Made by a program: the position numbers and the translations under genes
Notes under the pieces: model-generated
Seen by the model: the letters and a program-made list of their open reading frames with translations, nothing else
Told to the model about the DNA's origin: nothing
Database searches by the model: none
Part shown: positions 6,802 through 35,259 of the stretch, piece by piece
How positions within the stretch are numbered: position 1 is the first letter of the stretch
Layout of the letters: every line of letters starts with the position of its first letter
From: an uncultured Roseburia sp.
GTDB lineage: Bacteria > Bacillota > Clostridia > Lachnospirales > Lachnospiraceae
Length of the DNA stretch: 37,142 nt
Reading direction: 5' to 3'
NCBI GenBank assembly: GCA_947628935.1
Contig: CANRBT010000003.1
Location: 1-37,142 of the forward strand

Positions 6802-8364
6802 CTATCGGTTTACATCATCCACAAAGCGTCCAAACGCCGCGCGTCCCTCCTCCGTGCACTTGTACACCCCGGCATCCTGCAATACCTCCTGAAACACCAG
6901 ACCGATCTCCGTCTGAACGATCTCATGCAGCCGCTCGGCGGACACCTCGCCCTCCAGCGCGCCGCCCGCGGTAAAGCCGTACTTCGGCAGGAACTCCTCC
7001 ACCCAGTCGGCATGCTTTTCCAGCGTGTCGTCCCTGCGGAGCGAAACGCCGTCCAAAAGCGCCCGCTCGAGCGCCGCCATCTCATCCTTCAGCCTTGCCG
7101 GAAGGACCGCAAGACCCATGACCTCGATCAGACCGATATTCTCCTTCTTGATGTGGTGCAGCTTTGCGTGCGGGTGATACACCCCAAGCGGATGCTCCTC
7201 GGTCGTGATGTTGTTTCGCAGCACTAGGTCGAGCTCAAAATCCTCCCCGCGCCGCCGTGCGATCGGCGTGATCGTGTTGTGCGGCTCTCCGTCCGTCTCC
7301 GCGAACACGAACGCCGCCTCATCCGTGTAACCGCGCCATGCCAGCAGGATCTTATCCGCCAGCTCGATCAGGCGCTCCTTCTCCCTCGCGCGGATGCGGA
7401 TGACGGACATCGGCCATCTGACGATGCCTGCCTTCACATCCGAAAATCCGTCGAACGCGATCTCCCGCTCCACAGGCGCCTTTGCCATCGCAAACTCATA
7501 ATGACCGCCCTGGAAATGGTCATGGCTTAAGATCGAGCCTCCCACGATCGGAAGATCCGCATTCGAGCCGACAAAGTAATGCGGAAACTGCTCCACAAAA
7601 TCCAAAAGCTTTCCGAACGTCGCGCGCTCGATCTTCATCGGCGTATGCTGCGCGTTGAAAACGATGCAGTGCTCGTTGTAATAGACATACGGCGAATACT
7701 GGAAAAACCAGTCGCTGTCATTGATCGTCACAGGAATGATGCGGTGGTTCTGTCTTGCCGGATGGTTGATGCGCCCCGCATAGCCCTCGTTCTCCTTGCA
7801 CAGGAGGCATTTGGGATAGCCGCTCTGCTTTGCCAGCTTCGCCGCCGCGATCGCCTTCGGATCCTTCTCCGGCTTGGACAGGTTGATGGTGATGTCGAGC
7901 GTGCCGTACTCCGTGTCGGCGGTCCACTTGACGTCCTTTCGGATGCGGTATCTGCGGATATAGTCGGTATCACGGCTCAGCTTGTAAAAAAAGTCCGTCG
8001 CCGCCCTCGGGGACTCGTTCCTGTAAAGCTCTCGAAAATGCGCGATCACCTCGCTTGGTCTGGGAACCAGCATGCTCATGATCTTTGTGTCGAACAGATC
8101 GCGATAGGTGATCGTATTCTCGGGCATCAGCCCCTCCTGCGCCGCGTAGTCGAGCATTTCCGCGAGGATGCCCTCCAGCGCTTCCTCCGCCTGCTCCTGC
8201 GTCATGGGCTCCCGTTTTGCGAACGCCTCCGCAGTCTCATCGGAAAGCTCCTCCAGCCCAAACAGCTCCAACAGACGGTTGATCGTATATCTCCGGTCCT
8301 CCGGCTTCACCAGTCCGGTCGCCAGTCCGTACTCCGTCAGCTCCAAAATCCGCTCCTGAATCAT
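6802..8364 (-). CDS. galT: UDP-glucose--hexose-1-phosphate uridylyltransferase (GalT, Firmicutes type)
   Basis: 520 aa; KCLLCKENEGYAGRINHPARQNHRIIPV, SILSHDHFQGGHYEFAMAKAP. Confidence 0.94.
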   Translation of the reverse strand: MIQERILELTEYGLATGLVKPEDRRYTINRLLELFGLEELSDETAEAFAKREPMTQEQAEEALEGILAEMLDYAAQEGLMPENTITYRDLFDTKIMSMLVPRPSEVIAHFRELYRNESPRAATDFFYKLSRDTDYIRRYRIRKDVKWTADTEYGTLDITINLSKPEKDPKAIAAAKLAKQSGYPKCLLCKENEGYAGRINHPARQNHRIIPVTINDSDWFFQYSPYVYYNEHCIVFNAQHTPMKIERATFGKLLDFVEQFPHYFVGSNADLPIVGGSILSHDHFQGGHYEFAMAKAPVEREIAFDGFSDVKAGIVRWPMSVIRIRAREKERLIELADKILLAWRGYTDEAAFVFAETDGEPHNTITPIARRRGEDFELDLVLRNNITTEEHPLGVYHPHAKLHHIKKENIGLIEVMGLAVLPARLKDEMAALERALLDGVSLRRDDTLEKHADWVEEFLPKYGFTAGGALEGEVSAERLHEIVQTEIGLVFQEVLQDAGVYKCTEEGRAAFGRFVDDVNR

Positions 8365-8380: not shown

Positions 8381-9550
8381 TTATGCCAGCTTCACAGGTC
8401 CGTCGCCGATCTTAACCACATAGAAATCCGCCGCGTAACCGATCTTCTTCTGATAAGCCGCGCCGACCCTCTCGATAAAGGCATCGACCGCCTCGTCCTG
8501 CACGATACTGACCGTACAGCCGCCGAAGCCCGCCCCGGTCATACGCGAACCGATGACGCCTTCGACCTTCCACGCCTCCTCGACCAGCGTGTCAAGCTCG
8601 ATGCCCGTCACCTCGTAATCGTCGCGCAGCGAGACATGGGAAGCATTCATCAGCTCGCCGAACAGCTTCACGTCATTCTCGCCGAGCGCCTTCACAGCCT
8701 GGATCGTCCGCTGGTTCTCATAGACGGCGTGCCTTGCCCGCTTTCTGCAGGTCTCATCCCCGATGGCGTCCTGATACCGCTCGAACTGCTCCTCCGTCAG
8801 ATCGCCCAGCGTCCGAATATCCGTGACCTTCTGAAGTTCGGCAAGCGCCTGCTCACACTCGCTGCGCCTCTCGTTGTACTTGGAATCGCCGAGCCCGCGC
8901 TTCTTGTTGCTGCAGGAGATCACGATCTTCGCGTTTTCAAGCCTGATCGGGGCATATTCGTATGCGAGCGTCGCCGTGTCCAGAAAGATCGCATGCCCCG
9001 CCTTGCCCATCGCGATCGCAAACTGATCCATGATGCCGCAGTTGACGCCGTTAAATTTGTTTTCGGAATACTGTCCGATCAGAGCCAGATCCTGATTCGT
9101 CACGTCAAAGCCGAACAGGTCTTTGAGGATAAAGCCTGTGAGCACCTCGACCGACGCGGAGGAGGACAGCCCGGAACCGTTCGGGATATTGCCGAAAAGC
9201 ACGAGATCCAACCCCTGCTCCACCTTCATGCCCTTCTCGCCGAATGCCCATATCACGCCCTTCGGGTAATTCGTCCAGTCCGCTTCCTTCTCCGGTTTTA
9301 GATCCTCCACAGACGATTCCAGCACGCCGAGCTGTTCAAAGTTCATCGAATAGAACCGAAGCTTCTTGTCCTGACGCTTTCTCGCCACCCCATAGGTGCC
9401 GATCGTGAGCGCGCAGGGGAACACATGCCCTCCGTTGTAATCTGTGTGCTCGCCGATCATGTTGACGCGCCCCGGCGCAAAATACACCCCGATCTCGCCC
9501 TCTCCCCCGAACAGCTCCTCAAATCTTGCCCGTACGTCTTCCCAAATCAT
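8381..9550 (-). CDS. galK: Galactokinase
   Basis: 389 aa; FAPGRVNMIGEHTDYNGGHVFPCAL signature, PNGSGLSSSASVEVL, MTGAGFGGCTVSIV. Confidence 0.96.
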   Translation of the reverse strand: MIWEDVRARFEELFGGEGEIGVYFAPGRVNMIGEHTDYNGGHVFPCALTIGTYGVARKRQDKKLRFYSMNFEQLGVLESSVEDLKPEKEADWTNYPKGVIWAFGEKGMKVEQGLDLVLFGNIPNGSGLSSSASVEVLTGFILKDLFGFDVTNQDLALIGQYSENKFNGVNCGIMDQFAIAMGKAGHAIFLDTATLAYEYAPIRLENAKIVISCSNKKRGLGDSKYNERRSECEQALAELQKVTDIRTLGDLTEEQFERYQDAIGDETCRKRARHAVYENQRTIQAVKALGENDVKLFGELMNASHVSLRDDYEVTGIELDTLVEEAWKVEGVIGSRMTGAGFGGCTVSIVQDEAVDAFIERVGAAYQKKIGYAADFYVVKIGDGPVKLA

Positions 9551-15967: not shown

Positions 15968-16801
15968 TTATACCCCCCCCAGTGTCTTTTCGATCGTCTC
16001 CATCAGCTTGTCGTGCTCCACAGGCTTTAACAGGTAGCCCTGCGGCTGCACGGCAAGCGCCTGCGCGATCTTGGAGCGCTCCGTGACGCCGGTCAGGAAG
16101 ATGACCGGGATATCCTTGGTCGCGGGATTCTTCCTCAACTTCTCCAGCACCTGCACGCCGCTCTCCTCCGGCATCTCATAGTCCAGCAGGATGAGATCCG
16201 CCTGCTTTTTTTCGAGATACTTCAACGCCACCTTGCCGCTGACCGCGGTCGCGACCTCATACTCGCCGACCAGCTGCTTGTTGATCGTCTTGAGCATCGT
16301 CACGCTGTCGTCCACGACCAGGATCGTCTTTTTCCGCGCCGGCTCCTTTGCCGGCTGCGATCCGCTCCCGAAAGGATTGAGCAGGGACGCGAGCACGTCC
16401 TCCTCCTCCTGCGTCCGCTCGATCCCGCGGCGCGCGTTCTCCTTCAGGTACTTCGCGAACCTCACGCCGATATCCTGCGCTTTGATCGGCGTCGTCAGGA
16501 TCACATCCGCCGTGTTGGGCGCCTCACGGGTAAAATCCGAACAGCTTTCATGCGAGCCGACCACGAAAAACGGGATCGTGTCCCCGACCCGGCGCTTCAG
16601 CGCGACCATCCGATTCACCATGTCCACAGGCTCGTCATAGATACAATAACAGAACATATCAGGGTCGCAGAACTTGATATGGTTCATAATGTCGTCGATC
16701 CGCGTGGAAGTCGTCAGCAGATCCATATTGTCGCTCAGATGGGCGTAAATGTCATCGATGACCGTGTTGTTCTTCCCCGCCAGCAAAATCTTATACCGCA
16801 T
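15968..16801 (-). CDS. Response regulator with two receiver-like domains and no output domain
   Basis: C-terminal canonical REC TILVVDDSVTMLKTI...ADLILLDYEMPEESGVQVL...LLKPVEHDKL; N-terminal half REC-like but degenerate. Confidence 0.85.
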   Translation of the reverse strand: MRYKILLAGKNNTVIDDIYAHLSDNMDLLTTSTRIDDIMNHIKFCDPDMFCYCIYDEPVDMVNRMVALKRRVGDTIPFFVVGSHESCSDFTREAPNTADVILTTPIKAQDIGVRFAKYLKENARRGIERTQEEEDVLASLLNPFGSGSQPAKEPARKKTILVVDDSVTMLKTINKQLVGEYEVATAVSGKVALKYLEKKQADLILLDYEMPEESGVQVLEKLRKNPATKDIPVIFLTGVTERSKIAQALAVQPQGYLLKPVEHDKLMETIEKTLGGV

Positions 16802-16838: not shown

Positions 16839-18008
16839 TCAGGACCGCTCCGCCTGAAAATCCCGGATGAGCCGCAGCGCCGGAAGCGCGTTCCCGTCAT
16901 AGTCAAAGAGCGCCTGATTCGCCCACTCGTTGCCGCAGGGTCCCGGATCGCCCATATATTTCAGGGACGCCGGCGTCGCCCAGCCGGAACCCGGAACCGG
17001 GATCCACGCGGGCTCCCAGTAGAAAAAGCCCCGTCCCCTGCCGTCCCGGATATGGCTGATGCGGTTCAGGAAATCCTCCATAAAATCGCACTGCCCCTGC
17101 CTGGTCATCGGGTACTCGATCTTCTCCACGAGCTCCCGTCTGGTCGCATAGCCCTTGCGCTCCCCGTCCGGCAGCTTCTCGTACGCCCCGTAATCCTCCA
17201 TCGTGTAGCCCATGGAGACCTCCGCGATGATGAGGTCCTTCCCGTACCGCTCCGCGATATCGTTCATGTTGTCCGTGAGCATCTGGAGCGTCCCGTGCCA
17301 GAACGGATAGTAGGACAGACCGATGATCTCGAAGTCCTCGCCGCACGCCGTGAAATGGTCGAACCACTCCCGGTAGAGCGCATTGTTGCCGCCGTTGTCC
17401 AGATGGATCATCACGGGGATCTTTGCAAGGCGCCTGCACGCCTCATGCACGCCGGAGATCTCTCCCGCCAGCCGCATAGCGTCCGCCTTCCGCACAGCGC
17501 GGATGCCCGCGTTCACGAATCTTGCGATATTGTCGTAATGCGGCACCCGTCCCTCCGGCCAGAGCAGCCCGTTCGAGAGCTCGTTGCCGACCTGGATCAT
17601 CGAGAGGTTCACGCCGTTCTCCAAAAAAGTCCTCGTGCTCTCCAGCGTATAGTCGTAGACCGCACGCTCCAGCTCCTCGACCCCGTAAGACGCCCACGCC
17701 TTGGGCTTGATCTGCTTGCCCGGATCCGCCCAGAAATCGCTGTAATGAAAATTCAGCAGCACGGAAAATCCCGCCGCCGTCACACGCTTTGCGATCGCAA
17801 GCGTAGTCTGCAGATCGTTCTCCCCCGCGCCGTAGGACTCGCCCGTCTCCGACCGCGGGTCGTTCCAGAGGCGGATGCGGACGGTATCGACATCGTACCG
17901 TTTCAGGATCGAGAGCACATCCTCCTCCCCGCCTCCGTCGTAATACCTCGCCCCGCACCGCTCCAGCTCGAGAAGGGTAGACAGATCCATTCCTTTTACA
18001 AATCTCAT
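16839..18008 (-). CDS. Arabinogalactan endo-beta-1,4-galactanase (GH53), no evident signal peptide
   Basis: 389 aa; MRFVKGMDLSTLLELERCGARYYD, VDTVRIRLWNDP, LLNFHYSDFWADPGKQ, IQVGNELSNGLLWPEG, FEIIGLSYYPFWHGTL, AEVSMGYT. Confidence 0.92.
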   Translation of the reverse strand: MRFVKGMDLSTLLELERCGARYYDGGGEEDVLSILKRYDVDTVRIRLWNDPRSETGESYGAGENDLQTTLAIAKRVTAAGFSVLLNFHYSDFWADPGKQIKPKAWASYGVEELERAVYDYTLESTRTFLENGVNLSMIQVGNELSNGLLWPEGRVPHYDNIARFVNAGIRAVRKADAMRLAGEISGVHEACRRLAKIPVMIHLDNGGNNALYREWFDHFTACGEDFEIIGLSYYPFWHGTLQMLTDNMNDIAERYGKDLIIAEVSMGYTMEDYGAYEKLPDGERKGYATRRELVEKIEYPMTRQGQCDFMEDFLNRISHIRDGRGRGFFYWEPAWIPVPGSGWATPASLKYMGDPGPCGNEWANQALFDYDGNALPALRLIRDFQAERS

Positions 18009-18014: not shown

Positions 18015-18581
18015 CTATACCTCCTGTATCATCCGAATGAGTTCCTCCCGCGAGACCCCGTAGCGCGATGCGTAGGACACCAGCTCCTTTGCGCGCTCGC
18101 GCACATAGATCTCCGGGTTATCCTTGGAAACGGAAATGATCATCTCGTACTTTTTCTGCTTCTCCTCAGATACCAGCTTTAAGAATTCGGACAACGTCTG
18201 CTTGAGCACAGTCACCTCTTTTGCCCCTGCCATGCAGAGCAGTTCCCGGTACGCCTGCAGCTCGACCTCGTTCAGCCGTCCCTTCACGCACACGCCGACC
18301 ACGGGCTTTTTCAGAAATCCCGCTTTCCCCGCCGCCTCCTGTGTGCGCGCCATGAACTCGCGGAACATGTACTCAGCCGCCTGGAGATCCGAGATACGCC
18401 CCTGATGGAGCGGAGAGATATACATCGTCCCCTCCGGGAAATCTCCTTCCGACACAGCGTTGCCGACCGCCTGCACCTGCCCTCGGGGCGAAAGCGCAAG
18501 GAGCGCCTGCTCCTTCAGCACGATGCCATGCCCTCTGACATAGATCTCAATGTCCGCCGGTTCATAGTTGATTCTTTTCAT
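18015..18581 (-). CDS. Truncated MreB-like (actin-fold subdomain IA) protein with degenerate phosphate loops
   Basis: IYVRGHGIVLKEQALLALSPRGQVQAVGNAV...ISPLHQGRISDLQAAEYMFREFM...KPVVGVCVKGRLNEVELQAYRELLCMAGAKEVTVL aligns by eye with MreB IYVKGKGIVLNEPSVVAI...AVGN...RPLKDGVIADF...RPxVVICVPSGVTEVEKRAVxDAAxxAGAREV. ORF open to 18596. Confidence 0.7.
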   Translation of the reverse strand: MKRINYEPADIEIYVRGHGIVLKEQALLALSPRGQVQAVGNAVSEGDFPEGTMYISPLHQGRISDLQAAEYMFREFMARTQEAAGKAGFLKKPVVGVCVKGRLNEVELQAYRELLCMAGAKEVTVLKQTLSEFLKLVSEEKQKKYEMIISVSKDNPEIYVRERAKELVSYASRYGVSREELIRMIQEV

Positions 18582-18606
18582 ACAACCCTCTCCCATTCTT
18601 CCTGTT

Positions 18607-21693
<3,087 letters not shown>

Positions 21694-21711: not shown

Positions 21712-22551
21712 CTACTTGACCGCGCCGGTGATACCCTCTGCAAACTGCTTCTGCAGCACGAAGAAGATGATCATCGTCGGGATCGAGCAGAACAACACGC
21801 CCAGCATCAATACCCCGTAGTCCACGGTATAGCCTGCCGCCAGGTTCGCGATCAACATCGGCATCGTCTGCGCCGCATTGTCCGTCAAAACGACCTTCGG
21901 CCACAGATAGGCGTTCCAGGCGTTCATGAACGTGATGACCGCCGCAGCCGCGTAGGTCGAGCGCATGATCGGCATATACATCTGGAAGAAAATGCGGAGC
22001 TCACTCAGACCGTCGATGCGCGCCGCCTCCATGACGTCCACAGGAAAGCTCCTGGAGTTCTGGCGGAACATCATGATCAGGAACGGCGTCGAGATCGCCG
22101 GAAGCATAAAGCCCCACACGGTATTGAGCATGTGCATACCGGAGATCATCTTGTACAGCGGGATCATCGTCGCCACCTGCGGCACCATCATGGCGAGAAG
22201 CAGAATGGAAAACACGAGATCCTTCTGCTTGTCGTGGTATAGCTCAAAGCCATAGCCCGCGAGAGAGCAGATCAGCAGTGCCACGATCGTCTGCACGAAC
22301 GCAAACAGGAAGGAATGCCCCATCGCGCTCCACAGATCCTGTCTGTCGAGCAGGTTCCTGAAATTCTCCGCGAGGTAAGTCCCGAACCAGATCCTGCCGC
22401 GCGCCACATCGACCGACTGGTTCGTCGCCGCCGTGATCATCCAGAACAGCGGAAACACGGAGATGAAGGACACAACGATCAAAAATATGTAGGACGGGAT
22501 CAGCTTGCGCTGGATATGTGAGGTCTTTCTCTTCTTAGTCACGCTTATCAC
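21712..22551 (-). CDS. Carbohydrate ABC transporter permease (MalG-like)
   Basis: 279 aa; multi-TM with EAARIDGLSELRIFFQMYMPIMRS EAA loop. Confidence 0.92.
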   Translation of the reverse strand: MISVTKKRKTSHIQRKLIPSYIFLIVVSFISVFPLFWMITAATNQSVDVARGRIWFGTYLAENFRNLLDRQDLWSAMGHSFLFAFVQTIVALLICSLAGYGFELYHDKQKDLVFSILLLAMMVPQVATMIPLYKMISGMHMLNTVWGFMLPAISTPFLIMMFRQNSRSFPVDVMEAARIDGLSELRIFFQMYMPIMRSTYAAAAVITFMNAWNAYLWPKVVLTDNAAQTMPMLIANLAAGYTVDYGVLMLGVLFCSIPTMIIFFVLQKQFAEGITGAVK

Positions 22552-23431
22552 CTACTTTCATGCTGATCGCGGAAAGGATCGCGACCAGAATAAAGATGAA
22601 GAACGACATCGCCGACGCATATCCGAAATTCGCAACGCCCTGTCCGAAGGAGTTGTTGTAGATATAGTGCGACATCGTGATGGTCGAATTCGCCGGACCG
22701 CCGCTCGTCAGGTTCATGGACTCGTCGAACAGCTGCAGCGTACCGTTGATCGACATGATCGCGGTCATGACGATGGTCGGCATCAAAAGCGGGACTGTGA
22801 TCCGCCAGAAGGTCTGCCAGCCGTTCGCGCCGTCGATCTTTGCCGCCTCGTACACAGAGTACTCGATGTTCTGCAAACCGGCAAGGAAGAATACCATGTT
22901 GTACCCTGTCCAGCGCCAGAGCAGGGCGATGATGATGATCGCCTTCGCGCTGCCCGCCGTGCCGAGGAAGTTATAGTTTTCCTCCAGGATCCCAAGATTC
23001 ACTAAGATGGAATTAATGAGTCCCTGTGTTGCGAACAGCGACTTGAAGATCAGCGAATAGGAAACCAGGGATGTCGCACAGGGCAGGAACACGCAGGTGC
23101 GGAAAAATCCCCTGAATTTCAGATCCTTATTGTTCAGTATCTGCGCCAGGAGCATGGCGAGGATCAGCATGATCGGCACCTGCACCAGCAGATACAAAAA
23201 CGTATTTCCAACAGAACGCATGAATAATTTGTCCTGGAACATTCGCGTATAATTGTAAACGATCGGCTCCGCCCACTGCATATTGGCGCTCGAGCCTGTC
23301 TTCAGTGAAGTGATGACTGCCTGGATGATCGGATAAAAGCTCATGACCACGATCAGAGCGGTCGCCGGTGCCAGGTACACCCAGCCCGCAATGTGCTGCT
23401 TCGAGGTCACGCTCATGCCTTTTTTCTTCAA
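22535..23431 (-). CDS. Sugar ABC transporter permease (MalF/UgpA-like)
   Basis: 298 aa; YEAAKIDGANGWQTFWRITVPLLMPTI EAA loop. Confidence 0.92.
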   Translation of the reverse strand: MKKKGMSVTSKQHIAGWVYLAPATALIVVMSFYPIIQAVITSLKTGSSANMQWAEPIVYNYTRMFQDKLFMRSVGNTFLYLLVQVPIMLILAMLLAQILNNKDLKFRGFFRTCVFLPCATSLVSYSLIFKSLFATQGLINSILVNLGILEENYNFLGTAGSAKAIIIIALLWRWTGYNMVFFLAGLQNIEYSVYEAAKIDGANGWQTFWRITVPLLMPTIVMTAIMSINGTLQLFDESMNLTSGGPANSTITMSHYIYNNSFGQGVANFGYASAMSFFIFILVAILSAISMKVGDKRD

Positions 23432-23511: not shown

Positions 23512-24897
23512 TCAGTTGCCCATCTCGAAATTCAGCTGATCCTCTGCCGCCTGCAGCTCTGTCATTGTGTCTGCGCCGTTGATGATGTTGATGATCGCTG
23601 CCGCGATATACTGACGGCAGGTGTAGTGATAATCACTCTGCTCTACGACCGGCACGTTCGCACCCATCTCTACGATCTTTGCATAGATCGGGGTGTTGTT
23701 GAAGTACTCCACGCCCTGCTGATAGACGTCGGACTCGCCCGCGGAGATACAGGTCGTGATAACGCCGCCGTTCGTCAGCGCCCCGTCATAGGTCACTGTG
23801 CTCCCGCCGAAGGTGTAGGCAAGGAAATCCTTTGCAAGCTGCGCGTTCTGGCAGTTGGAGCTGATGTACAGGGAGGAGCCGCCGTTGGATGCGTAGCCCT
23901 CCTTGCCGCCGCCTTCCAGTGTCGGCATCGAGGTGATCTCCCACTTTCCGCTGTTCTCCGCCACCTGCTCGATGGTCGGGATGATCCAGTTGCCGTTCAT
24001 AACGCCTGCGACCATGTCGCCGACGATCGTCTGATCCGTGTAATCGCTCCACTCGTTCGCCAGATACAGCACGTTATTCTGCGCCATCTCGACGATCTTG
24101 TTGACGATCTCGACCAGCGTCTCGTTCTCTACGATGTAGGGCTTGCCGTCCTTGAACTGGGAGCCGCCCTCCGCCTGCAGCATCATGTACACGAGGTCAT
24201 TGCCGTCGCCGTCCATCGAGAGCAGGTACTTGCCGGTCTTGTCATAGACATCCTTGCCGATCGCGATGAACTCATCCCAGGAAATACCGGTCAGATCGTC
24301 GATCGTGTAGTTGCACTGCTCCAGAAGATCCACGCGGTATGCAAAGATGACCGTGCCGTTGTCCACCGGAAAGCCGTAGTGCGTTCCGTTGATCGTGGAG
24401 TAGGAGAGCTTCTCCTGGCTGAAATCGTCCCAGTTGACGTCCGCATCCGCCACATCGATAAATGCGTCCGGATAATCCGCCACATATCTCTGGATCCAGT
24501 GATCCTGGAACAGGAAGATATCCGGCAGCGTGCTGTAATCGCCGGAAGATCCTGCCAGCGTGATCGCATTCTCGATGTCCTCGGACTGGGACTGCTCCAC
24601 GATGTTCAGCTCGAACTCCGGATCGACGTTCGCCTTGTAGTCGTCTGCCGCCGCCTGCAGCGCCGGAATGTTAAAGCCCGCGTCCCATGCCCATGCGGTC
24701 AGGGTGTGTCCGCCCTCCGCACCTGCGTCCGCGCTGCCCGCATCCGAGGAGCCTGCGTCCGCCGCGCCCGCATCCGCACTGCCTGCGTCCGCGCTGCCTG
24801 CGTCTGAGGAGCCTGCATCGCTGCCGCCTCCGCATCCGGCTGCCATCGTCGCGATCATCGCCGTCGTCAGCATCAGTGATAATACCTTTTTCTTCAT
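23512..24897 (-). CDS. Extracellular solute-binding lipoprotein, sugar ABC transporter
   Basis: MKKKVLSLMLTTAMIATMAAGCGGG lipobox, followed by a typical family 1 SBP sequence. Start at 24897. Confidence 0.93.
   Translation of the reverse strand: MKKKVLSLMLTTAMIATMAAGCGGGSDAGSSDAGSADAGSADAGAADAGSSDAGSADAGAEGGHTLTAWAWDAGFNIPALQAAADDYKANVDPEFELNIVEQSQSEDIENAITLAGSSGDYSTLPDIFLFQDHWIQRYVADYPDAFIDVADADVNWDDFSQEKLSYSTINGTHYGFPVDNGTVIFAYRVDLLEQCNYTIDDLTGISWDEFIAIGKDVYDKTGKYLLSMDGDGNDLVYMMLQAEGGSQFKDGKPYIVENETLVEIVNKIVEMAQNNVLYLANEWSDYTDQTIVGDMVAGVMNGNWIIPTIEQVAENSGKWEITSMPTLEGGGKEGYASNGGSSLYISSNCQNAQLAKDFLAYTFGGSTVTYDGALTNGGVITTCISAGESDVYQQGVEYFNNTPIYAKIVEMGANVPVVEQSDYHYTCRQYIAAAIINIINGADTMTELQAAEDQLNFEMGN
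24718..24822 (-). repeat. Low-complexity S/A-DAG repeat linker in the lipoprotein
   Basis: Encodes SDAGSSDAGSADAGSADAGAADAGSSDAGSADAGA. Confidence 0.85.
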
Positions 24898-25079
24898 GCT
24901 TCTTCCTCCCAAAATATTCATTTTGACCAATCCGAACCGCACGCGCCGGAAACTTTTTCATCAGTTTGCCAGATTTTCGTGTTTTTTTCGTTTAGTCTTA
25001 TATGCATTTTAACAAATATATGCCGCATTTTGTGAGCATATTCAGAGGAAATACGCGCATTTTCGACCATCACTGAGCA

Positions 25080-26030
25080 TTACCAACCCTTCAGCGCAGA
25101 AATCCGGTAATTTAAGAGCTTATTTTCGTAATTTCCCGCGCTGATCTTCCACTGATAAGGCGAGGTTCCCAGAAATTTCTTAAAGTTCCGGTTAAAGGTA
25201 GACGTCGTGGAAAAGCCGACCTTCTGCGCCACCATGTCCATCGAGTCGCCGCTCCTTTTCATCAGGTCGCACGCCTTCTGGACGCGCATAAAATTGATAT
25301 AATCTACCGGCGACATGTTCATACAGGCTTCAAAGACGCGCCGGAAATGCGTCTCGCTCATGTGGCACGCTTTTGCCAGCTCCTCCACGCGGATCATGTG
25401 CATGTATTCCGCCTCCACATATTCCAGCGCCGCGCCGATCTTTGCCACGCCCACAGCCCTGTGCACGCCGCTCTCCGGCGCGGCCATAACGCCCTCCTGC
25501 CCGTTCACCCGCAGAAGCTCCGTCAGAAACGCGAGCAGCAGCCCCTTCACGCTGTCGTTGTAATTCGTCCGCTTTTCGCGCATCTCCTCCATGATCATGC
25601 GCGCGAGCGTTGCAAGGCTGCGGTTCTCCCACTCGTGCAGAAACAGCGCCGTGCGGTTCAGCTTCTCCAGCAGGCTGTGCCGGTACAGATCGCTTCCCTG
25701 GTACAGCTCGGGCATAAGCGCCGGAAGATCGAGATAGAGATACTCCCAAAAGCTGGGACCCTCCCCGGGGGCGCTTCTGGTCGTGTGCGGGTAATTGGCA
25801 GGGATCACGCTGAGCATGGCGGGCTGATAGGGCATCGCCTGCTCGTCCAGCACCAGCTCGCCGGTCCCGCTCCTGCAGCAGCCGATCTCCATCAGATTGT
25901 GAAAGTGGAGTCCCGTCTCCCCCACTCCGTAGTTGCGCACCCAGCTCTCCCCGAGCAGCGCCAGCACATACTCGTTCTGCGGTATCTCATAGAACCGCAG
26001 CTCCATCGTTCCCGCTTTCTTTTTCTTCAT
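25080..26030 (-). CDS. AraC family transcriptional regulator
   Basis: C-terminal tandem HTH: VEELAKACHMSETHFRRVFEACMNMSPVDYINFMRVQKACDLMKRSGDSMDMVAQKVGFSTTSTFNRNFKKFLGTSPYQWK. Start may alternatively be 26006. Confidence 0.92.
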   Translation of the reverse strand: MKKKKAGTMELRFYEIPQNEYVLALLGESWVRNYGVGETGLHFHNLMEIGCCRSGTGELVLDEQAMPYQPAMLSVIPANYPHTTRSAPGEGPSFWEYLYLDLPALMPELYQGSDLYRHSLLEKLNRTALFLHEWENRSLATLARMIMEEMREKRTNYNDSVKGLLLAFLTELLRVNGQEGVMAAPESGVHRAVGVAKIGAALEYVEAEYMHMIRVEELAKACHMSETHFRRVFEACMNMSPVDYINFMRVQKACDLMKRSGDSMDMVAQKVGFSTTSTFNRNFKKFLGTSPYQWKISAGNYENKLLNYRISALKGW

Positions 26031-26052
26031 CCGAATCCCCCAAAAAATCCCC

Positions 26053-26093
26053 AAAAAGGGGGCTGTCGCCGCAAAGCGTCTCCGACAGTCCCC
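26053..26093 (-). terminator. Rho-independent terminator between the zinc-ribbon ORF and araC-like gene
   Basis: Minus strand GGGGACTGTCG ... CGACAGCCCCC followed by TTTTT. Confidence 0.75.
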
Positions 26094-26105: not shown

Positions 26106-26324
26106 CTAATCAAAATCAAATTTGGTAAACCGATCCATCATCGCGCGATAGCGAAAGCGGATCATCTCATTCTTCTCCAGCACATCCTCCTCCGTGCCAA
26201 CGTACTGGCAGCGAAGGCAGTAGTACTCTTTTTTGTCCTTATCATAGAACATATCAATGTCGAGATCGCGCATAAAGCACGAGGGACACCGGTAATTTAG
26301 TTTGCCCTTTCCAGATTGAGCCAT
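26106..26324 (-). CDS. Small zinc-ribbon-like hypothetical protein
   Basis: 72 aa with two CxxC pairs (YRCPSC ... YYCLRC); 28-nt overlap with the upstream gene's 3' end; followed by a terminator. Confidence 0.65.
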   Translation of the reverse strand: MAQSGKGKLNYRCPSCFMRDLDIDMFYDKDKKEYYCLRCQYVGTEEDVLEKNEMIRFRYRAMMDRFTKFDFD

Positions 26325-28150
26325 GTCGCAAACACCTCCTTATCTGCCATTGTCTTCTTATATCCCAGCGTGAACATCGGCGAGAATGCATATCCCTCGC
26401 GGATATAGCCCTCCGCCCTGTCATCGTCTGCAGTCAGCGACACCCTTGTCTCGATCGCCGGGATCACGGCGGAGACTTCTCTTGCCCCTGCGACAGACGC
26501 CTCCCGGCACTTGTACTCGTAAGCGATCGTCTCTGCCACACCGTCCCCTTCCGCCTTCAGCGTGATGCCGGTCATATCCTCCGGGTACTCCGTTGTGCCA
26601 TAGCACGCGACCATGTACTCGTTGATCTCCACCTGTGCGGACGGGTCGCTCATCTCAAGGATCGTGCGCTCGATGCGGATATTGCCGCTGCCCTCCTCAA
26701 AATATTCCTTCGTCTGGAGCTTCACCGTCAGTCCGTCAAATTCGATATCGACCGGGTCAAGCGTCAGCACGCGCGTCACTCTGCCTGCCGCATCCTTCTC
26801 CTCCGAGAAGTGCGCCTTCGTGCGGCAGAGGCAGAGATCGACCTCCTCGCCGTTGTAGCAGACCTTTGCGCTGCGCACCGTCCCCTCGCCCGCGTAGTGC
26901 GTGAAATAGCCCGCGCGGTACTTCTCCTGGATCAGGAACGGATAGGAAGCATCCTGTACATGCTTTGTGCCGATACCGACCTCCCACCGCAGCTTCGCCG
27001 CATACGGACGCAGATCGACGATCGCGCCGCCCTGGTCCATATTGACGCAGGCTCTCATGTACGGGTCGCAGTACCAGAACACCTGCTTGTCGGAGCCGTA
27101 GAGGATATCTCTCCAAAGCGCACACTCCGGTTCTGTGTAGTGCTTTTTCTCGCGGTAGTAATCCGCAAACTCGGACATCGTGAGGTCTAAGAGCTTGCCC
27201 TCCTTCTTGAGCTTGCCGTAATACGCGCATCCGTCCTCATAGGACTTGAGCAGCAGCTCGTACGGCGCCTCCCAGCGTCCCATCTTGTTCATCCAGCCGG
27301 GTCCGACGAACATCATGTTGTATGCATAGCCGTTGTTGTATTTTGCCAGATCACGGTACTGGTCGATCAGATTGTAGAGGTACGGGTACTCCCAGGTCTT
27401 GGAATCGTAGATCATGCCGCGGAGCACGTTCTGCGGATGCGTTCCGAAATTGGAGCCGTTGCCGTCATAGCACGCGATCAGGTCGCGGGACAGATGCGGG
27501 ATCGCGACGATACCGCTGTCCTCCGCCTCATTCGCCGCCGGTGCGTGCGTATTCTGCTTGGACGGGATCCACGGAGCCCAGGGACCGCCGTCAAACAGCG
27601 TATACCAGGAGTTATTGCAGGTGTGGTACGCCTTCGGTCCCTCCTCCCAGCAGGTCGCGACCGCACACTTCACCATCGGGTATTTCTCCTTGATGTAATT
27701 CGTCAGGTCCGCATCCATGTAGTAGGAGCCTGTAGACTCCGGATAGAAGCCGAAGCGCTCATGGAACTTCTCGAACACGTCGTTGACGATCTCCTTTTTG
27801 TCCTCCATCGAGAACATCCAGATACAGAAATCCTTGGTATTGTACTTCTCGCGGAACTCCTTGCAGGGAAGTCCCAGCAGGGAGAGCGCGATCTCGTCCC
27901 CGTATTTCTCGTGATGCTCCTTCGCCAGCGCAACCGCCTCGTCGTTGAACAGACTCGCGTAGGTCATCTGGATCGTGACCTTCAGTCCGTTCTTGTGCGC
28001 CGCTTCCTGCTGCGTCTTAAAAATGTCCAGGGACTCCGTTAAAAGCGCCTTTCTTCCGATGTCCTCCGTTTTTCCGTGACCTGTGACCTTCTCCGCATAC
28101 TCGGGAACCATCTCCGGTCTGTGAATCAGGTTCAAAACCAATTGATCCAT
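26297..28150 (-). CDS. Uncharacterized 617-aa putative carbohydrate-active protein (family not recognised)
   Basis: Intact long ORF in a sugar-transport operon; aromatic/acidic-rich, with STGSYYMDADLTNYIKEKYPMVKCAVATCWEEG resembling NodB/GH57-type barrels. No signal peptide. Confidence 0.6.
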   Translation of the reverse strand: MDQLVLNLIHRPEMVPEYAEKVTGHGKTEDIGRKALLTESLDIFKTQQEAAHKNGLKVTIQMTYASLFNDEAVALAKEHHEKYGDEIALSLLGLPCKEFREKYNTKDFCIWMFSMEDKKEIVNDVFEKFHERFGFYPESTGSYYMDADLTNYIKEKYPMVKCAVATCWEEGPKAYHTCNNSWYTLFDGGPWAPWIPSKQNTHAPAANEAEDSGIVAIPHLSRDLIACYDGNGSNFGTHPQNVLRGMIYDSKTWEYPYLYNLIDQYRDLAKYNNGYAYNMMFVGPGWMNKMGRWEAPYELLLKSYEDGCAYYGKLKKEGKLLDLTMSEFADYYREKKHYTEPECALWRDILYGSDKQVFWYCDPYMRACVNMDQGGAIVDLRPYAAKLRWEVGIGTKHVQDASYPFLIQEKYRAGYFTHYAGEGTVRSAKVCYNGEEVDLCLCRTKAHFSEEKDAAGRVTRVLTLDPVDIEFDGLTVKLQTKEYFEEGSGNIRIERTILEMSDPSAQVEINEYMVACYGTTEYPEDMTGITLKAEGDGVAETIAYEYKCREASVAGAREVSAVIPAIETRVSLTADDDRAEGYIREGYAFSPMFTLGYKKTMADKEVFATWLNLERAN

Positions 28151-28183
28151 AGCTTCCTCCTCATAGATATGATAATTTTCCGT

Positions 28184-29026
28184 TTAACCCTTTACCGCTC
28201 CGCCCGTGATACCCTCGACGTAGAACTTCTGCATGATGACGAACAGCACAGAGATCGGGATCGCCACGATCACGCCGCCCGCGCAGAACACGGAGAAATA
28301 ACTTCCGATCAGGTTCCTCTGCAGCAGATTGAACAGCCCGATCGCGACCGTCCAGTCCGCGGGGCTCTTGGACTTGATCATCAGCCGCGCCATCACAAAG
28401 TCCATCCACGGATTCAGAAACGAGTTGATGACCGTGTACACGATGATCGGCTTGGAGAGCGGAATGATGATCCTCGTAAAGATCGTGAACTCCGAAGCGC
28501 CCTCCAGCTTCGCGGACTCGCGCAGCGAAACGGAGATCGTATCGAAGAATCCCTTACAGATCAGATACCCGAGCCCCGATCCCGCCGAGTAGACGATGAT
28601 CAGTCCGGCGATGCTGTCCGAAAGCCCGAACAGCTTGAGCACGAAATAGATCGCGATCATGGAGAGCACGCCCGGGAACATCCCGAGGATGATCGAAAAG
28701 CTCATCAGCGCTTTCCGTGAACGGAACCGCATGCAGCTGAACGCGTAGGACACCATCAGGACAAACATCGTCGATATGATACAGCACGCGATGCCGATGA
28801 TCATGGAATTTTTAAACCACGCCGGGAAATTCGCCGCCGTGTCCGGTCGGAAGAACAGCTGCGCATAGTTGTCAAGCGACCAGTGCTCCGGGAAGAAATG
28901 TGTTGTGTCGATGCTCTTGTTCGCACTCAGCGAAGTCACCACCAGCCAGATGATCGGAATCAGCCAGATAAATGCGAGGAGTGCCAGAACAACGTGTCTT
29001 ATGATCAATTTCACAGTTTTTTTCAT
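28184..29026 (-). CDS. Carbohydrate ABC transporter permease (MalG/GanQ-like)
   Basis: 280 aa; ESAKLEGASEFTIFTRIIIPLSKPII EAA loop; ATG overlaps upstream TAA (TAATG). Confidence 0.92.
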   Translation of the reverse strand: MKKTVKLIIRHVVLALLAFIWLIPIIWLVVTSLSANKSIDTTHFFPEHWSLDNYAQLFFRPDTAANFPAWFKNSMIIGIACCIISTMFVLMVSYAFSCMRFRSRKALMSFSIILGMFPGVLSMIAIYFVLKLFGLSDSIAGLIIVYSAGSGLGYLICKGFFDTISVSLRESAKLEGASEFTIFTRIIIPLSKPIIVYTVINSFLNPWMDFVMARLMIKSKSPADWTVAIGLFNLLQRNLIGSYFSVFCAGGVIVAIPISVLFVIMQKFYVEGITGGAVKG

Positions 29027-30450
29027 TATTGAAATTCCTCCTCCTTATTGCCGCTGATCATCCGCGTGTAGCTGAGCAGCGTGATCACAGCGCAGATGAT
29101 GAAGGTCACGATACCGATCACGGAAGCCATCTTGAAGTTCGAGTAGTCGTTCGTCAGTGTAAACAGCCAGGTGATCAGCAGGTCGACCTCCTTCGCATTG
29201 GAATTGGCGTATGCCATATTCGTCGTCACATAGGAATTCGTCAGCAGGTAGATGACATTGAAGTTGTTGATATTTGCGATCACGGAGGTGATCAGACTCG
29301 GTCCTGTGATGAACAGCATATACGGCATCGTGATCTTCCAGAAGATCTGAAACTCGCTCGCGCCGTCGATGCGCGCGCTCTCGAGCTGGTCGTTCGGAAT
29401 GTTCATCAGAATGCCGGTCGCGATCAGCATCTGGTAAGGCACACCGACCCAGATATTGATGAGGATGATCATCACATGCGCCCAGCCCGGCTTGGAGAGA
29501 AACGGGATATAGGAAAGTCCCTTGCTCACCAGTCCGATGTCCTGCAGAAACCCGGTCAGTCCGATCTTGCTGCACAGACCGTTCACGATGCCGTAGTCTC
29601 CGAACATCTTGCTGATCAAAAGCAGCGTGACGAACTGCGGGATCGCGATCGTGATAATGAACAGCGTCCTCCAGACCTTCTTGCCGATGGTCTTCTCGTT
29701 GTTGATGAATTTTGCAAGCAGAATACCGCCAATGTATGTCGTAAACGTGGCAAGCACAGCCCAGATCAGAGTCCACACGAGGACGCGGGCAAATACATAG
29801 CCAAAGGTTATCGTCGTAGTCGATGTAAACAGCGCCTTAAAGTTCGCCAGTCCGACCCAGGTAAACAGATAGGTCGGCGGCTGATGGTTCATGTCGTAAT
29901 TGGTGAACGCGATACAGATCATGAACAGGATCGGGATGATGTTGATGATCAGCACGCCGAGGCTCGGCAGCGTCAGCAGCGTTACATGGAACCTGTCGTT
30001 GATCAGTGTGCGCAGATCCTCGCGCAGCGAATTGATGTGCTCCCCGTTCTCCTTCATCGTCTGAATGCGGTACACAGTCTTCATGTTGCTGATCCACAGC
30101 AGAAGAAATGCGAAGATGACCAGAATGCCGATCACGCCGCCCAGCAGGATCAACAGCGAGTTGTCATAGTCATTGACCGTTTTGGTCATCGTCAGCGGGT
30201 CAAAGACCTCCTCCCGCTGCACGGTGCCCAGCGTGCCGAGCTTTGCCATATAGGGCCAGGAAAACAGTGCCGTGAACGCAAAAAATCCGCACTCCACAAG
30301 CGTCATCAGAATGCCCTTCACGAGCTGTCCCCTTCCGGCATACCCCGCTCCCATGATCACCAGCGACAGCCTGGTCCAGATGTCTCCCCTTGCAACGCTG
30401 GTTCCAAATTCCGCAAAATATTTTTTCAAACCGTTCAAGAATTTTTTCAT
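29026..30450 (-). CDS. Carbohydrate ABC transporter permease (MalF/GanP-like, with N-terminal extension)
   Basis: 474 aa; ESARIDGASEFQIFWKITMPYMLFITGPSLI; N-terminal extra TM segments as in Bacillus MdxF/GanP types. Confidence 0.92.
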   Translation of the reverse strand: MKKFLNGLKKYFAEFGTSVARGDIWTRLSLVIMGAGYAGRGQLVKGILMTLVECGFFAFTALFSWPYMAKLGTLGTVQREEVFDPLTMTKTVNDYDNSLLILLGGVIGILVIFAFLLLWISNMKTVYRIQTMKENGEHINSLREDLRTLINDRFHVTLLTLPSLGVLIINIIPILFMICIAFTNYDMNHQPPTYLFTWVGLANFKALFTSTTTITFGYVFARVLVWTLIWAVLATFTTYIGGILLAKFINNEKTIGKKVWRTLFIITIAIPQFVTLLLISKMFGDYGIVNGLCSKIGLTGFLQDIGLVSKGLSYIPFLSKPGWAHVMIILINIWVGVPYQMLIATGILMNIPNDQLESARIDGASEFQIFWKITMPYMLFITGPSLITSVIANINNFNVIYLLTNSYVTTNMAYANSNAKEVDLLITWLFTLTNDYSNFKMASVIGIVTFIICAVITLLSYTRMISGNKEEEFQ

Positions 30451-30549: not shown

Positions 30550-31911
30550 TTACTGTGCATTCGCCGGCTGTGTGATACCCGCTACCGCCTCATCGAGCGC
30601 CGCCTGGAAATCTGTCACAGAACCCTCTACAAACTGTGCGCCGAGAGAGTTTGCCGGATCCCAGAAGTTCGGTCCGACAACCTGACGATCCGCAAATGCA
30701 GACTGTGCGGAAAGCGCCGCGATCGCCGGTGAAGAGACTGTGGATGCCACTGCCGTGTTCGTCGGGCTCTCGCCGGTCGCATTCGCGATCGCCGCCTGTC
30801 CGTCCTCGCTGGAGATATACTCCGCAAGGAGCATTGCCCATCCGACATTCTTGGAGTAAGCGTTCACGCCCACGAACTTGTAGCCTGCGAAGGAGCCCAT
30901 CTGGACGTCCTGTCCGCCGGCGTTGAAGGTCGGAAGCTTCACAGCGCCGTAATCCTCGCCGTAAGCTGCAATGATATCATCGACCGCCCACACGCCGTTG
31001 ACATATGCCTTCAGATCCTGTGCGTACATCGCGCGGGAATCCTGATCGTTCACTGCGATAAACGCCGGATCCGTAGCGATCGTCTGGATCGCCTCCGCGA
31101 CCTCTGCGCCCGTCGGGGATGTCGAGGTGGAGTTCCAGTCACAGGTGTTGGACTGATCCTCGTTCATGGTGAGCTCCATGCCTGCGCCCGCGAAGAAGGA
31201 GTACAGATACCATGCGTCCGCCACGTTCATGCCGACCTTCACGCCCGCCTCGTTTGCCTTTGCCAGAAGCGCCTCCCAGGATGCGACATCCGCATCGTCA
31301 AATACGCTCTTGTCATAATACAGGAAATATCCGTTCGACGCCGTCAGCGGATAAGCGTACATCTTGCCGCCGACCGTCACAGCCTCAACCGTGCTCTCCG
31401 CGTCCGCCTGCGCAATGTCATAGGTGTAGGTGGTCGCGACCTCGTTCAGCGCTCCCGCGTTCACCAGCTCGGAGATCTGGTCGTCCGCAAATACATAGAC
31501 ATCCGCAGCCGCCTCGACATCCTCGAGCACGCGATCCTTCGCGTCCGCCTCGGAAACGGAACCGATCTGAATATCAAACGTCACCTCCGGATAGGTGGAC
31601 TTAAAGCCATCGACCAGCTCTGCCATAACCGTCTGATAAGCCTCCTGCTCGGAGCACCACAGCTGCAGCGTCACCGTATCCGTGGTGTTCGCGATCAGTG
31701 TGTCGATCGGATTTGCAGCAGCGTCGCCTGCATCCGCCGCGCCTGCATCTCCTGCGTCCGCGGTGCCTGCGTCTGCAGCGCCTGCCGCGCCTGCATCTGC
31801 CGCGCCTGCGTCGCTGCCGCCGTCCGTCGTACCGGCATCACTGCCGCAGCCTGCGAACAGGCTTGCCGCCATGCTCATGCAGAGCACTGCGCTCAATACC
31901 TTTTTCTTCAT
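30550..31911 (-). CDS. Extracellular solute-binding lipoprotein (maltose/galacto-oligosaccharide type)
   Basis: MKKKVLSAVLCMSMAASLFAGCGSDAG lipobox; DTVTLQLWCSEQEAYQTVMAELVDGFKSTYPEVTFDIQ...YAYPLTASNGYFLYYDKS. Confidence 0.93.
   Translation of the reverse strand: MKKKVLSAVLCMSMAASLFAGCGSDAGTTDGGSDAGAADAGAAGAADAGTADAGDAGAADAGDAAANPIDTLIANTTDTVTLQLWCSEQEAYQTVMAELVDGFKSTYPEVTFDIQIGSVSEADAKDRVLEDVEAAADVYVFADDQISELVNAGALNEVATTYTYDIAQADAESTVEAVTVGGKMYAYPLTASNGYFLYYDKSVFDDADVASWEALLAKANEAGVKVGMNVADAWYLYSFFAGAGMELTMNEDQSNTCDWNSTSTSPTGAEVAEAIQTIATDPAFIAVNDQDSRAMYAQDLKAYVNGVWAVDDIIAAYGEDYGAVKLPTFNAGGQDVQMGSFAGYKFVGVNAYSKNVGWAMLLAEYISSEDGQAAIANATGESPTNTAVASTVSSPAIAALSAQSAFADRQVVGPNFWDPANSLGAQFVEGSVTDFQAALDEAVAGITQPANAQ
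31711..31842 (-). repeat. Low-complexity DAG/AADAG repeat linker in the second lipoprotein
   Basis: Encodes SDAGTTDGGSDAGAADAGAAGAADAGTADAGDAGAADAGDAA. Confidence 0.85.
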
Positions 31912-31961: not shown

Positions 31962-32017
31962 TTGCGCAATCGGTTGTCCTCTTTGATAAGTATATCCTGA
32001 TTTTTCCTTTGTGTCAA
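31962..32017 (-). promoter_or_regulatory. Promoter of the second ABC operon with downstream TTGCGCAA palindrome
   Basis: Minus strand TTGACA-17 nt-TATACT (-35 at 32012-32017, -10 at 31989-31994); palindrome TTGCGCAA at 31962-31969. Confidence 0.75.
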
Positions 32018-32062: not shown

Positions 32063-33070
32063 CTATTTTGTCGAATCCTTCAGCACGATTTCGTAGGACA
32101 GCAGCGTCCGGTCTTCCACAGGCTTCCCCTCGATCAGATCGAGCAGCTCCCTGCACGCCGTGCGCCCGAGCTCCCTGGAATCAAAGGAAAGCGAGGTGAT
32201 CGACGGCACATTGTCCTGCAGGATCATGCTGTCATAGAAGGATGCCACGCGCACATCCTCCGGCACGCGCACCCGGCGCTCTCTGAGCGCCCGCAGCACC
32301 CGGCTCGTGACCGCATCGTCCATACAGAGGATGCAGTCCACCCGCTGCCCGAGGATCTCCTGCACCACCCGTCCGACCATCATGCGGTTGTCGGGATTCA
32401 GGTACAAAAGCTCCTCATCGACCGTTCTGCCCGCCTGCTCATAGGCATCCCGAAAACCGTCCAGCCTGCTCTGGGTGACGACATACCCCTCATCCTCCCC
32501 CACGAGCGCAATGCGGGTAAGTCCCCGCATCAGAAGCAGCGATGTCAGTTCCCGACAGGCGCTCCTGTGGTTGTGGTCCACCTGGACGACCCCCTCATAA
32601 TTGGTGCTTCCGGTCGTCACAAAGGGAATGTCCCGCTGCTGTAAAAATTCCAGCTGCGCATCCTCAAGCAGCGTGCGCATCACGATCACGCCGTCCACCT
32701 TGTGGTTCGCCACGATACGCTCCAGAGACGAGATATCGTTCCTTCGCCCCATGGTCATCAGGATATCGTACCCGGCGGTCTCCGCCATCTCCTGGATGCC
32801 GAACAGGCACTCCTGGAAATAGTTCCAGTCGACGACCTCGTAATTTCCGGGCATCGTCACGCACAGATTGTAGGTCTTGGACTGCGCAAGCCCCTTTGCG
32901 ATCGCGTTCGGCTTGTAATCATGCTCTTGAATGTACGTCAGCACCCGCTCCCTCGTGCCGCGTCCAATGCGCCCCTTCCCGGAGATCGCCCGGGAGACCG
33001 TCGTCTTGGAAACGCCCAGCGCCTCCGCCACATCCGCGATCGTAATGTTCTTCTTTTCGTCTTTTTCCAT
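32063..33070 (-). CDS. LacI family transcriptional regulator
   Basis: ITIADVAEALGVSKTTVSRAISGKGRIGRGTRERVLTYIQEHDYKPNAIAKGLAQSKT N-terminal HTH and hinge. Confidence 0.95.
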   Translation of the reverse strand: MEKDEKKNITIADVAEALGVSKTTVSRAISGKGRIGRGTRERVLTYIQEHDYKPNAIAKGLAQSKTYNLCVTMPGNYEVVDWNYFQECLFGIQEMAETAGYDILMTMGRRNDISSLERIVANHKVDGVIVMRTLLEDAQLEFLQQRDIPFVTTGSTNYEGVVQVDHNHRSACRELTSLLLMRGLTRIALVGEDEGYVVTQSRLDGFRDAYEQAGRTVDEELLYLNPDNRMMVGRVVQEILGQRVDCILCMDDAVTSRVLRALRERRVRVPEDVRVASFYDSMILQDNVPSITSLSFDSRELGRTACRELLDLIEGKPVEDRTLLSYEIVLKDSTK

Positions 33071-33122
33071 ACCGTAAGCACCGTATCCTTCTGTAATCTG
33101 CGCCGGCTGCGCACCTGATTTC

Positions 33123-33151
33123 ATTATCAGGCATCCCGTAAAAAAAATCAA
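33123..33151 (-). promoter_or_regulatory. Putative lacI-type gene promoter
   Basis: Minus strand TTGATT-17 nt-GATAAT (-35 at 33146-33151, -10 at 33123-33128). Confidence 0.5.
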
Positions 33152-33249: not shown

Positions 33250-35259
33250 ATGCGCACAGACACCTTACGCTTCGGCGCTGCCTACTATTCCGAATACCTG
33301 CCCTACGACCGTGTGGAAAAGGATATGGAGATGATGGAGCGCGCCGGAATGAACACCATCCGTATCGCAGAATCCACCTGGAGCACCCTGGAGCCGCAGG
33401 ACGGCGTATTTGATTTTACGCATATCGACCGGATGCTCTCCGCCGCCGCACGCCATCGCATCTCGGTCATCGTCGGCACGCCGACCTACGCCGTTCCGAC
33501 CTGGCTCGTGAAGAAATATCCGGATATCCTGGCGGTCACGCAGCACGGACGGGAGCGCTACGGTCATCGGCAGAACATGGACATCACGCACCCGGATTAC
33601 CTCCGGCACGCCGAGCGCGTCATCCGCGCGCTGATGGAGCACATCAGGGACGTTTCCCACATCATCGGCTTCCAGCTCGACAATGAGACGAAAAGCTACG
33701 GCACGGCGGGTCCGCGCGTGCAGCGCCGCTTTGTCGAATACCTGAAGGAACGCTTCCCGGACCCAAACGATCTGAATCGCGCGTTCGGACTGGACTACTG
33801 GAGCAACCGCGTCAACGCCTGGGAGGATTTCCCCGATGTCCGCGGCACGATCAACCAGAGCCTTGCGGCGGAATTTCAAAAATTTCAGCGCTCCCTCGTC
33901 ACGGAATTTCTGAGCTGGCAGGCGGCGATCGTGCGGGAATATGCGCGGGAGGACCAATTTATCACGCAGAACTTTGACTTTGACTGGGTCGGACACTCCT
34001 ATGGCTATCAGCCGGAGGTCGATCAGTATGAAGCGGCAAAATGTATGACGGTCGCAGGCGCGGACATCTACCACCCCTCTCAGGGGAATCTCACCGGCGC
34101 GGAGATCAACGTCTGCGGAGCGATCGCGCGCAGTCTGAAAAAGGGCAGCTATCTGATCCTGGAGACCGAGGCGCAGGGCAACATCGAATGGCTCCCCTAC
34201 CCGGGGCAGCTCCGCCTGCAGGCATACAGCCATCTGGCAAACGGCGCCAACAGCGTCATGTACTGGCACTGGCATTCCATCCACAACGCCATCGAGAGCT
34301 ACTGGAAGGGCGTGCTCTCGCATGATTTTTCGGAAAATGAGACCTACCGGGAGGCATGCCGCATCGGCGGCGAGTGGCAGCGCATCGGAAAGCATCTTGT
34401 CAACCTGCAGAAAAAGAATGCCGTCGGCGTGCTGCTCGACAACAACTCTCTGAGCGGTCTTAGCCAGTTCCCGCTGGAGACGACGGGCGCTCACAGCTAC
34501 AACGCCGTCCTGCGCTGGATCTGCGATACGCTCTATCGGATGAATGTGGAATTTGATATGGTCTCCTCCGCAGAGAGGGATTTTTCCGCGTACAGCTTCC
34601 TGATCGTACCGGCGCTCTACAGCGCCCCGGAGGAGCTTCTGACGTCGCTCGCGCGCTACACAAAGGCAGGCGGTCATCTCATCGTCACCTTCCGCAGCGG
34701 ATTTGCGAACGAGGATCTGAAGATCTACGCGGATGCCCAGCCGCATATTCTGCGCGAATGCCTCGGCATCCACTACGACCAGTACACCTATCCGCATGGC
34801 GTGACGGTAAAGCTGACGGACGACGGCGGTTCCGGGCACCCGGCGGAAAGCCCTGCGCACGACTGGATGGAGCTTGTCTCCTGTGATACCGCAAAGGCGC
34901 TTGCCGTCTACGGACACCCCGCCTGGGAGCGCTGCGCAGCCGTGACGGAAAATTCCTACGGGAAGGGTGCTGCGCTCTATCTCGGCGCTTTTTTCGGCGA
35001 GGAGCTGCTCGCACAGATCCTTCGCCGTTTCTTTCTTTCGCATGGTCTGCATGTCCCCGACACACAGTTTCCCGTTGTCATAAAACGCGGCACAAACGAT
35101 TTCGGGAAGGAGCTCCGGTATTATCTCAACTTCTCCGACAGCGAACAGCTCGTCCCGCACAACGGCGACGACGGCGCGGAGCTGCTGGACGGAAAACCGG
35201 TCAAACGCGGCGATCTGTTCACGCTTGCGGCATGGGATCTAAAGATCGTGGAGAGCTGA
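33250..35259 (+). CDS. Beta-galactosidase, GH42
   Basis: 669 aa; LRFGAAYYSEYLPYDRVEKDMEMMERAGMNTIRIAESTWSTLEPQDGVFDF, GFQLDNETKSYGT, LILETEAQGNIEW, MYWHWHSIHNAIESYWKGVLSHDF. Confidence 0.95.
   Translation: MRTDTLRFGAAYYSEYLPYDRVEKDMEMMERAGMNTIRIAESTWSTLEPQDGVFDFTHIDRMLSAAARHRISVIVGTPTYAVPTWLVKKYPDILAVTQHGRERYGHRQNMDITHPDYLRHAERVIRALMEHIRDVSHIIGFQLDNETKSYGTAGPRVQRRFVEYLKERFPDPNDLNRAFGLDYWSNRVNAWEDFPDVRGTINQSLAAEFQKFQRSLVTEFLSWQAAIVREYAREDQFITQNFDFDWVGHSYGYQPEVDQYEAAKCMTVAGADIYHPSQGNLTGAEINVCGAIARSLKKGSYLILETEAQGNIEWLPYPGQLRLQAYSHLANGANSVMYWHWHSIHNAIESYWKGVLSHDFSENETYREACRIGGEWQRIGKHLVNLQKKNAVGVLLDNNSLSGLSQFPLETTGAHSYNAVLRWICDTLYRMNVEFDMVSSAERDFSAYSFLIVPALYSAPEELLTSLARYTKAGGHLIVTFRSGFANEDLKIYADAQPHILRECLGIHYDQYTYPHGVTVKLTDDGGSGHPAESPAHDWMELVSCDTAKALAVYGHPAWERCAAVTENSYGKGAALYLGAFFGEELLAQILRRFFLSHGLHVPDTQFPVVIKRGTNDFGKELRYYLNFSDSEQLVPHNGDDGAELLDGKPVKRGDLFTLAAWDLKIVES

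Follow-up and report, generated by a model that had tools for sequence, protein, structure and literature searches.

An orphan protein of 617 amino acids, which we will call X617, very likely has a role in galactan utilization in an uncultured Roseburia sp. It is encoded in a window of 37,142 nucleotides (the whole stretch of DNA that we analyzed). The chances are about even that X617 is a catalytic glycosidase. The reading that we favor, which we find roughly as credible as not, is an intracellular glycosidase, unassigned to any of the families that we searched, that would act on imported oligosaccharides from galactan or type-I arabinogalactan. This reading builds on what we observed of the locus, the genomic partner, the superfamily, the fold, and the conserved acidic residues; from these, we infer catalysis, mechanism, and substrate. 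Pectic galactan is a common dietary fiber for colonic Lachnospiraceae, including relatives of Roseburia, and X617 probably carries out an unrecognized step in the digestion of pectic fiber.

The X617 gene and its locus

X617 is encoded at 26297-28150 on the minus strand (the plus strand across this interval is interrupted by stops). The open reading frame begins with ATG, has no internal stop, and is preceded by a ribosome-binding site, AGGAGG, that we read from the sequence at 28151..28170 (minus strand). It lies 33 nt downstream of the gene for a MalG-type permease, which ends at 28184. The coordinates, the intact frame, and the 33-nt spacing agree with an earlier note on this DNA, which left the strand unstated and quoted three motifs that are all in the translation. 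On inspecting the N-terminus (MDQLVLNLIHRPEMVPEYAEK), we saw no signal peptide, in line with the cytoplasmic location that the note had proposed. We kept 80 relatives, 83-93% identical to X617, from at least 570 confirmed matches, so X617 is not a chance open reading frame. The relatives are all full length or nearly so. The nearest relatives have no described function.

The earlier note recognized no glycoside hydrolase family for X617, and our searches gave the same result: Pfam-A and NCBIfam returned zero families at E ≤ 0.1, and PHROGs returned no family. (Nearly all of the neighboring proteins were readily named.) Searching PDB by sequence gave no meaningful match, and no relatives were found in the viral contigs that we searched. 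In phylum-wide searches, where sampling was spread thinly over families, the sole match was X617's own genome.

In the order of transcription on the minus strand, the locus encodes a LacI-family regulator (32063..33151), a solute-binding protein (30550..31911), MalF-type (29026..30450) and MalG-type (28184..29026) permeases (both BPD_transp_1), X617, an AraC-family regulator (25080..26054), a second ABC importer (solute-binding protein, 23512..24942; permeases, 22535..23431 and 21712..22551), a GH2 beta-galactosidase of the LacZ type (18607..21678), an MreB-like ORF, a GH53 endo-beta-1,4-galactanase (16839..18008), and later, galactokinase (GalK, 8381..9550) and galactose-1-phosphate uridylyltransferase (GalT, 6802..8364). 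A GH42 beta-galactosidase is encoded divergently on the plus strand (33250..35259). The LacI-family regulator and the MalF- and MalG-type permeases were identified by Pfam/NCBIfam profile searches; the AraC-family regulator, the second importer, and GH42 were also identified by profile matches. For the first solute-binding protein, the best named match is GanS (galacto-oligosaccharide), far under that model's cutoff. A promoter-like sequence, TTGACA-17-TATACT (31989..32017, minus strand; a consensus match only), is 5' of its gene. The GH53 is 389 amino acids long, lacks a signal peptide, and is encoded 8.3 kb downstream of X617 on the same strand; a second GH53 (a 649-aa open frame) is encoded elsewhere in the genome. 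Because GH53 is the constant partner of X617 (see below), we assign this locus, with its GH53, GH2, GH42, GalK, GalT, and two ABC importers, to beta-1,4-galactan / type-I arabinogalactan. This narrows the galactose-containing oligosaccharides that had been suggested as the substrate.

Several other genes lie within this region. Between GH2 and GH53 is a 193-aa ORF (18015-18596, minus strand) that matches the first half only of MreB (E ~ 1e-16 to 1e-17); we found no counterpart of this half-length ORF among the loci of the 80 relatives. The minus strand from GH53 to the galactose genes encodes a hybrid histidine kinase that has a PocR domain and Hpt (13210-15924) and, as a separate protein, a response regulator (15968-16801). 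Next to these are another response regulator (12508-13188), an ABC ATPase (11482-12411), and a kinase (9733-10737). PTS enzyme I and a PfkB of the 1-phosphofructokinase type adjoin GalT (4134-6717, minus strand).

The locus can be compared to the gan system of Bacillus, which has GanSPQ, the GH42 enzyme GanA, the secreted GH53 enzyme GanB, and the LacI-type regulator GanR, with five genes in the ganSPQAB operon (PMC5472308). Both have a LacI regulator, an importer, a beta-galactosidase, and an endo-galactanase. In contrast to the Bacillus system as described, which has no X617, our locus has a cytoplasmic GH53 that is accompanied by X617. The predicted arabinogalactan loci (gpPULs) of Roseburia/E. 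rectale also contain GH53, and in the sections of PMC5320581 on these loci, some of the GH53 proteins have a signal peptide and CBM61 and some do not. The figures there show "hypothetical" genes, for which these sections name no function.

Pairing with short GH53 and rate of change

Across 81 loci (window included), GH53 is near X617 in 70, and it is always on the same strand. The two genes are within 400 nt of each other in 50 cases, and there are 53 distinct orders of marker genes. Several of the 11 loci without GH53 are on contigs that end beside X617. Two Lachnospiraceae genomes, G413 and G546, have X617 at 76-77% (loci L098 and L100) and lack GH53; the gene after X617 encodes a 2209-aa multidomain protein in L098 and a melibiase-like protein in L100.

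We also examined co-occurrence in one genus-level sample, 150 genera of Lachnospiraceae that were not chosen by X617. Core X617 was present in 19 genera, GH53 in 30, and both in 16 (p = 8e-11, treating genera as independent, as for all of these p-values). We then considered GH53 proteins by length, where short means an open frame of at most 410 aa (a cutoff that we chose). X617 was present in 14 of the 15 genomes with short GH53 (p = 9e-15), and in the same 150 genera, it had no association with genomes that have only long, presumably secreted GH53 (p = 1). X617 tracks the short, signal-less GH53 and not the long GH53, and we therefore associate it with the processing of galactan inside the cell. 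There are exceptions to this link, as three core members in this sample are found without GH53. Beyond Lachnospiraceae, other families of the class show the pairing as well.

X617 also changes slowly. In the same loci, median identity to the window's proteins is 85% for X617, 80% for GalK, 68% for GalT, 63% for GH53, and 61% for GH2, and X617 is more similar than nearly every neighbor in every locus; because the 80 loci were picked by similarity to X617, this comparison is tilted towards X617. In the genus sample, the median for X617 (83%) equals that of RpoB (82.9%). It is unusual for an accessory gene with a patchy distribution in a sugar locus to change at such a rate. We rejected horizontal transfer of the whole locus as the cause, because the neighbors of X617 in these loci show far less similarity than X617 does.

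Superfamily, fold, and conserved residues

Wider relatives of X617 (16-41% identity) are found across Clostridia in other sugar loci. Their neighbors are carbohydrate enzymes (GH29, GH127, PL8, GH38, GH78-like, and raffinose-synthase-like proteins), and some of the relatives themselves bear F5/8-type-C or CHB_HEX_C domains. A profile of superfamily members matched one PDB entry, 3LM3 (E = 1e-6, or 1e-4 with an earlier profile). 3LM3, the one structure by which DUF3863 is known, is BDI_3119 from Parabacteroides distasonis, an uncharacterized DUF3863/DUF3864 protein (PF12979/PF12980) that is titled "putative glycoside hydrolase/deacetylase." Comparing the X617 profile to this protein with hhalign gave a probability of 94.9% (E = 4.2e-8). 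The profile similarity extends over ~260-300 residues and the fold is the same, but identity is only ~15-19%. The similarities by profile, Foldseek, and hhalign place X617 and DUF3863 together in one wide superfamily. X617 does not match PF12979 itself at the gathering cutoff of 27 bits, nor does any other member of its clade; the best hits (E = 0.022) are in two distant superfamily members. A search of Clostridia for PF12979 found nothing, but since it found nothing in the control genomes either, this result does not argue that the family is absent. In the literature, we found no function for DUF3863 or 3LM3, nor did we find a demonstrated activity for any superfamily member; we know of none.

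The AlphaFold2 model of X617 (mean pLDDT 67, pTM 0.67) has an N-terminal beta/alpha barrel (residues ~1-425) and a C-terminal beta-sandwich (~426-617). The core strands are confident, and many of the active-site loops have pLDDT under 50. A Foldseek search with this model, as the earlier note had suggested, gave 3LM3 first (E = 1.1e-9), with low TM-scores (0.36/0.50). For the barrel, the next matches were NodB polysaccharide deacetylases (3qbu, 1z7a, and 3rxz), and for the sandwich, they were galactose-mutarotase-like domains of GH36, GH2, GH38, and phosphorylases (such as cellodextrin phosphorylase). The predicted fold of X617 is thus a NodB/GH57-type barrel with a mutarotase-like beta-sandwich, much as the earlier note had surmised from local motifs. 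A fold search of BFVD gave weak domain-level matches only.

The suggested likeness to GH57 and GH38 holds for the barrel type and not for family membership. GH57, GH38, and NodB/CE4 share the seven-stranded barrel, and GH38 also adds a beta-supersandwich, but we saw no profile-profile similarity of X617 to GH57 (hhalign probability 0.8%) or GH38 (0.3%). GH57 had no Pfam match, except that one distant relative gave E = 0.084, and the superfamily has no conserved histidine for the zinc site of GH38. X617 can also be likened to the GxGYxYP family (PF14323), which are gut-enriched putative glycoside hydrolases that likewise have a seven-stranded barrel and lack a demonstrated activity (PMC4071793); neither X617 nor the superfamily members match PF14323 in Pfam. 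Because proteins with this similar barrel have resisted activity detection, the Foldseek matches alone are not proof that X617 is catalytic.

In an alignment of 24 diverse superfamily members, T59, C167, and D223 never vary, conservation is 96% at E86, D146, and E327, and every member has Glu or Asp at position 169. T59, E86, D223, E327, and R366 are common to X617 and DUF3863, while D146, C167, and E169 are not shared. Conservation peaks in the barrel, with 65% of positions invariant (versus 30% in the beta domain), and the conserved acids there are near predicted strand ends. No histidine is conserved in this alignment, so by alignment the Asp-His-His triad of NodB/CE4 is absent. The metal sites of NodB (Asp and two His) and of GH38 need histidines, which makes a deacetylase or a GH38-type enzyme unlikely. 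The conserved acids and the lack of a conserved histidine fit a putative metal-free glycosidase with a GH57-like pair of carboxylates.

Proposed role and alternatives

In the pathway that we propose, secreted GH53 enzymes would cut pectic beta-1,4-galactan outside the cell, and ABC importers would take up fairly long galacto-oligosaccharides. In the cytoplasm, GH53 and the beta-galactosidases (GH42 and GH2) would shorten these to galactose, which would enter metabolism via GalK and GalT. X617 would remove a residue or linkage that GH53, GH42, and GH2 cannot handle; in type-I arabinogalactan, the simplest candidate is a side group or a cap at the non-reducing end. Its mechanism may be metal-independent, with two carboxylates in a GH57-like barrel (the candidates are E86, D146, E169, D223, and E327).

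One alternative is that X617 is a non-catalytic partner, a scaffold or sensor that binds galacto-oligosaccharides or the cytoplasmic GH53. A tight complex would suit both the nearly one-to-one pairing with short GH53 and the RpoB-like rate, which is much slower than that of the adjacent GH53. But conservation peaks in the barrel, with acids near the predicted strand ends, and superfamily members are also found in unrelated sugar loci without GH53, so we consider this unlikely. It is still less probable that X617 is a carbohydrate esterase or deacetylase that strips acetyl or acyl groups from imported galactan oligosaccharides and so enables GH53 and GH42. Pectic galactan can be O-acetylated, and the NodB matches follow 3LM3, whose own title mentions a deacetylase; against this, the NodB metal site is missing, and the mutarotase-like sandwich is a partner domain of the glycosidase type.

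Two further alternatives seem very unlikely to us, to a similar degree. X617 is intracellular and follows an importer, and phosphorylases also have a supersandwich domain, as might be expected for a phosphorylase or transglycosidase that acts on galactobiose or galactotriose. However, those phosphorylases have an (alpha/alpha)6 barrel, whereas that of X617 is NodB/GH57-like, and the locus keeps GalK, which is needed for free galactose. The earlier note had raised a phosphorylase and lacto-N-biose; no evidence in our analysis points to either. X617 could instead be a further beta-galactosidase, redundant with GH42 and GH2 and with another linkage preference, and some loci do have X617 and GH53 without GH2 or GH42 in the flanks that we fetched. 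But many X617 loci carry at least one GH2 or GH42, and the known glycosidases with this fold, GH57 and GH38, act on alpha bonds.

Returning to an intracellular glycosidase, a more tentative proposal, which we see as possible, is that X617 is the founding member of a new family of glycoside hydrolases. It would have a metal-free GH57-like site and would take a particular, as yet unassigned decoration or end-cap off the pectic galactan oligosaccharides that are imported; the whole DUF3863-containing superfamily would then comprise glycosidases of many specificities. If X617 is catalytic, then the galactan pathway of Lachnospiraceae has had an overlooked step, and a large unnamed superfamily, found in Clostridia and Bacteroidota and in several kinds of polysaccharide loci, becomes testable as a group of glycosidases.

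In P. distasonis, a closer relative of X617 (hhalign probability 100%, E = 3e-86) is encoded on a plasmid, directly upstream of the 3LM3 protein, and both are in one SusCD/GH2 PUL (L191:7587-10710). The adjacency of these superfamily members suggests a paired function.
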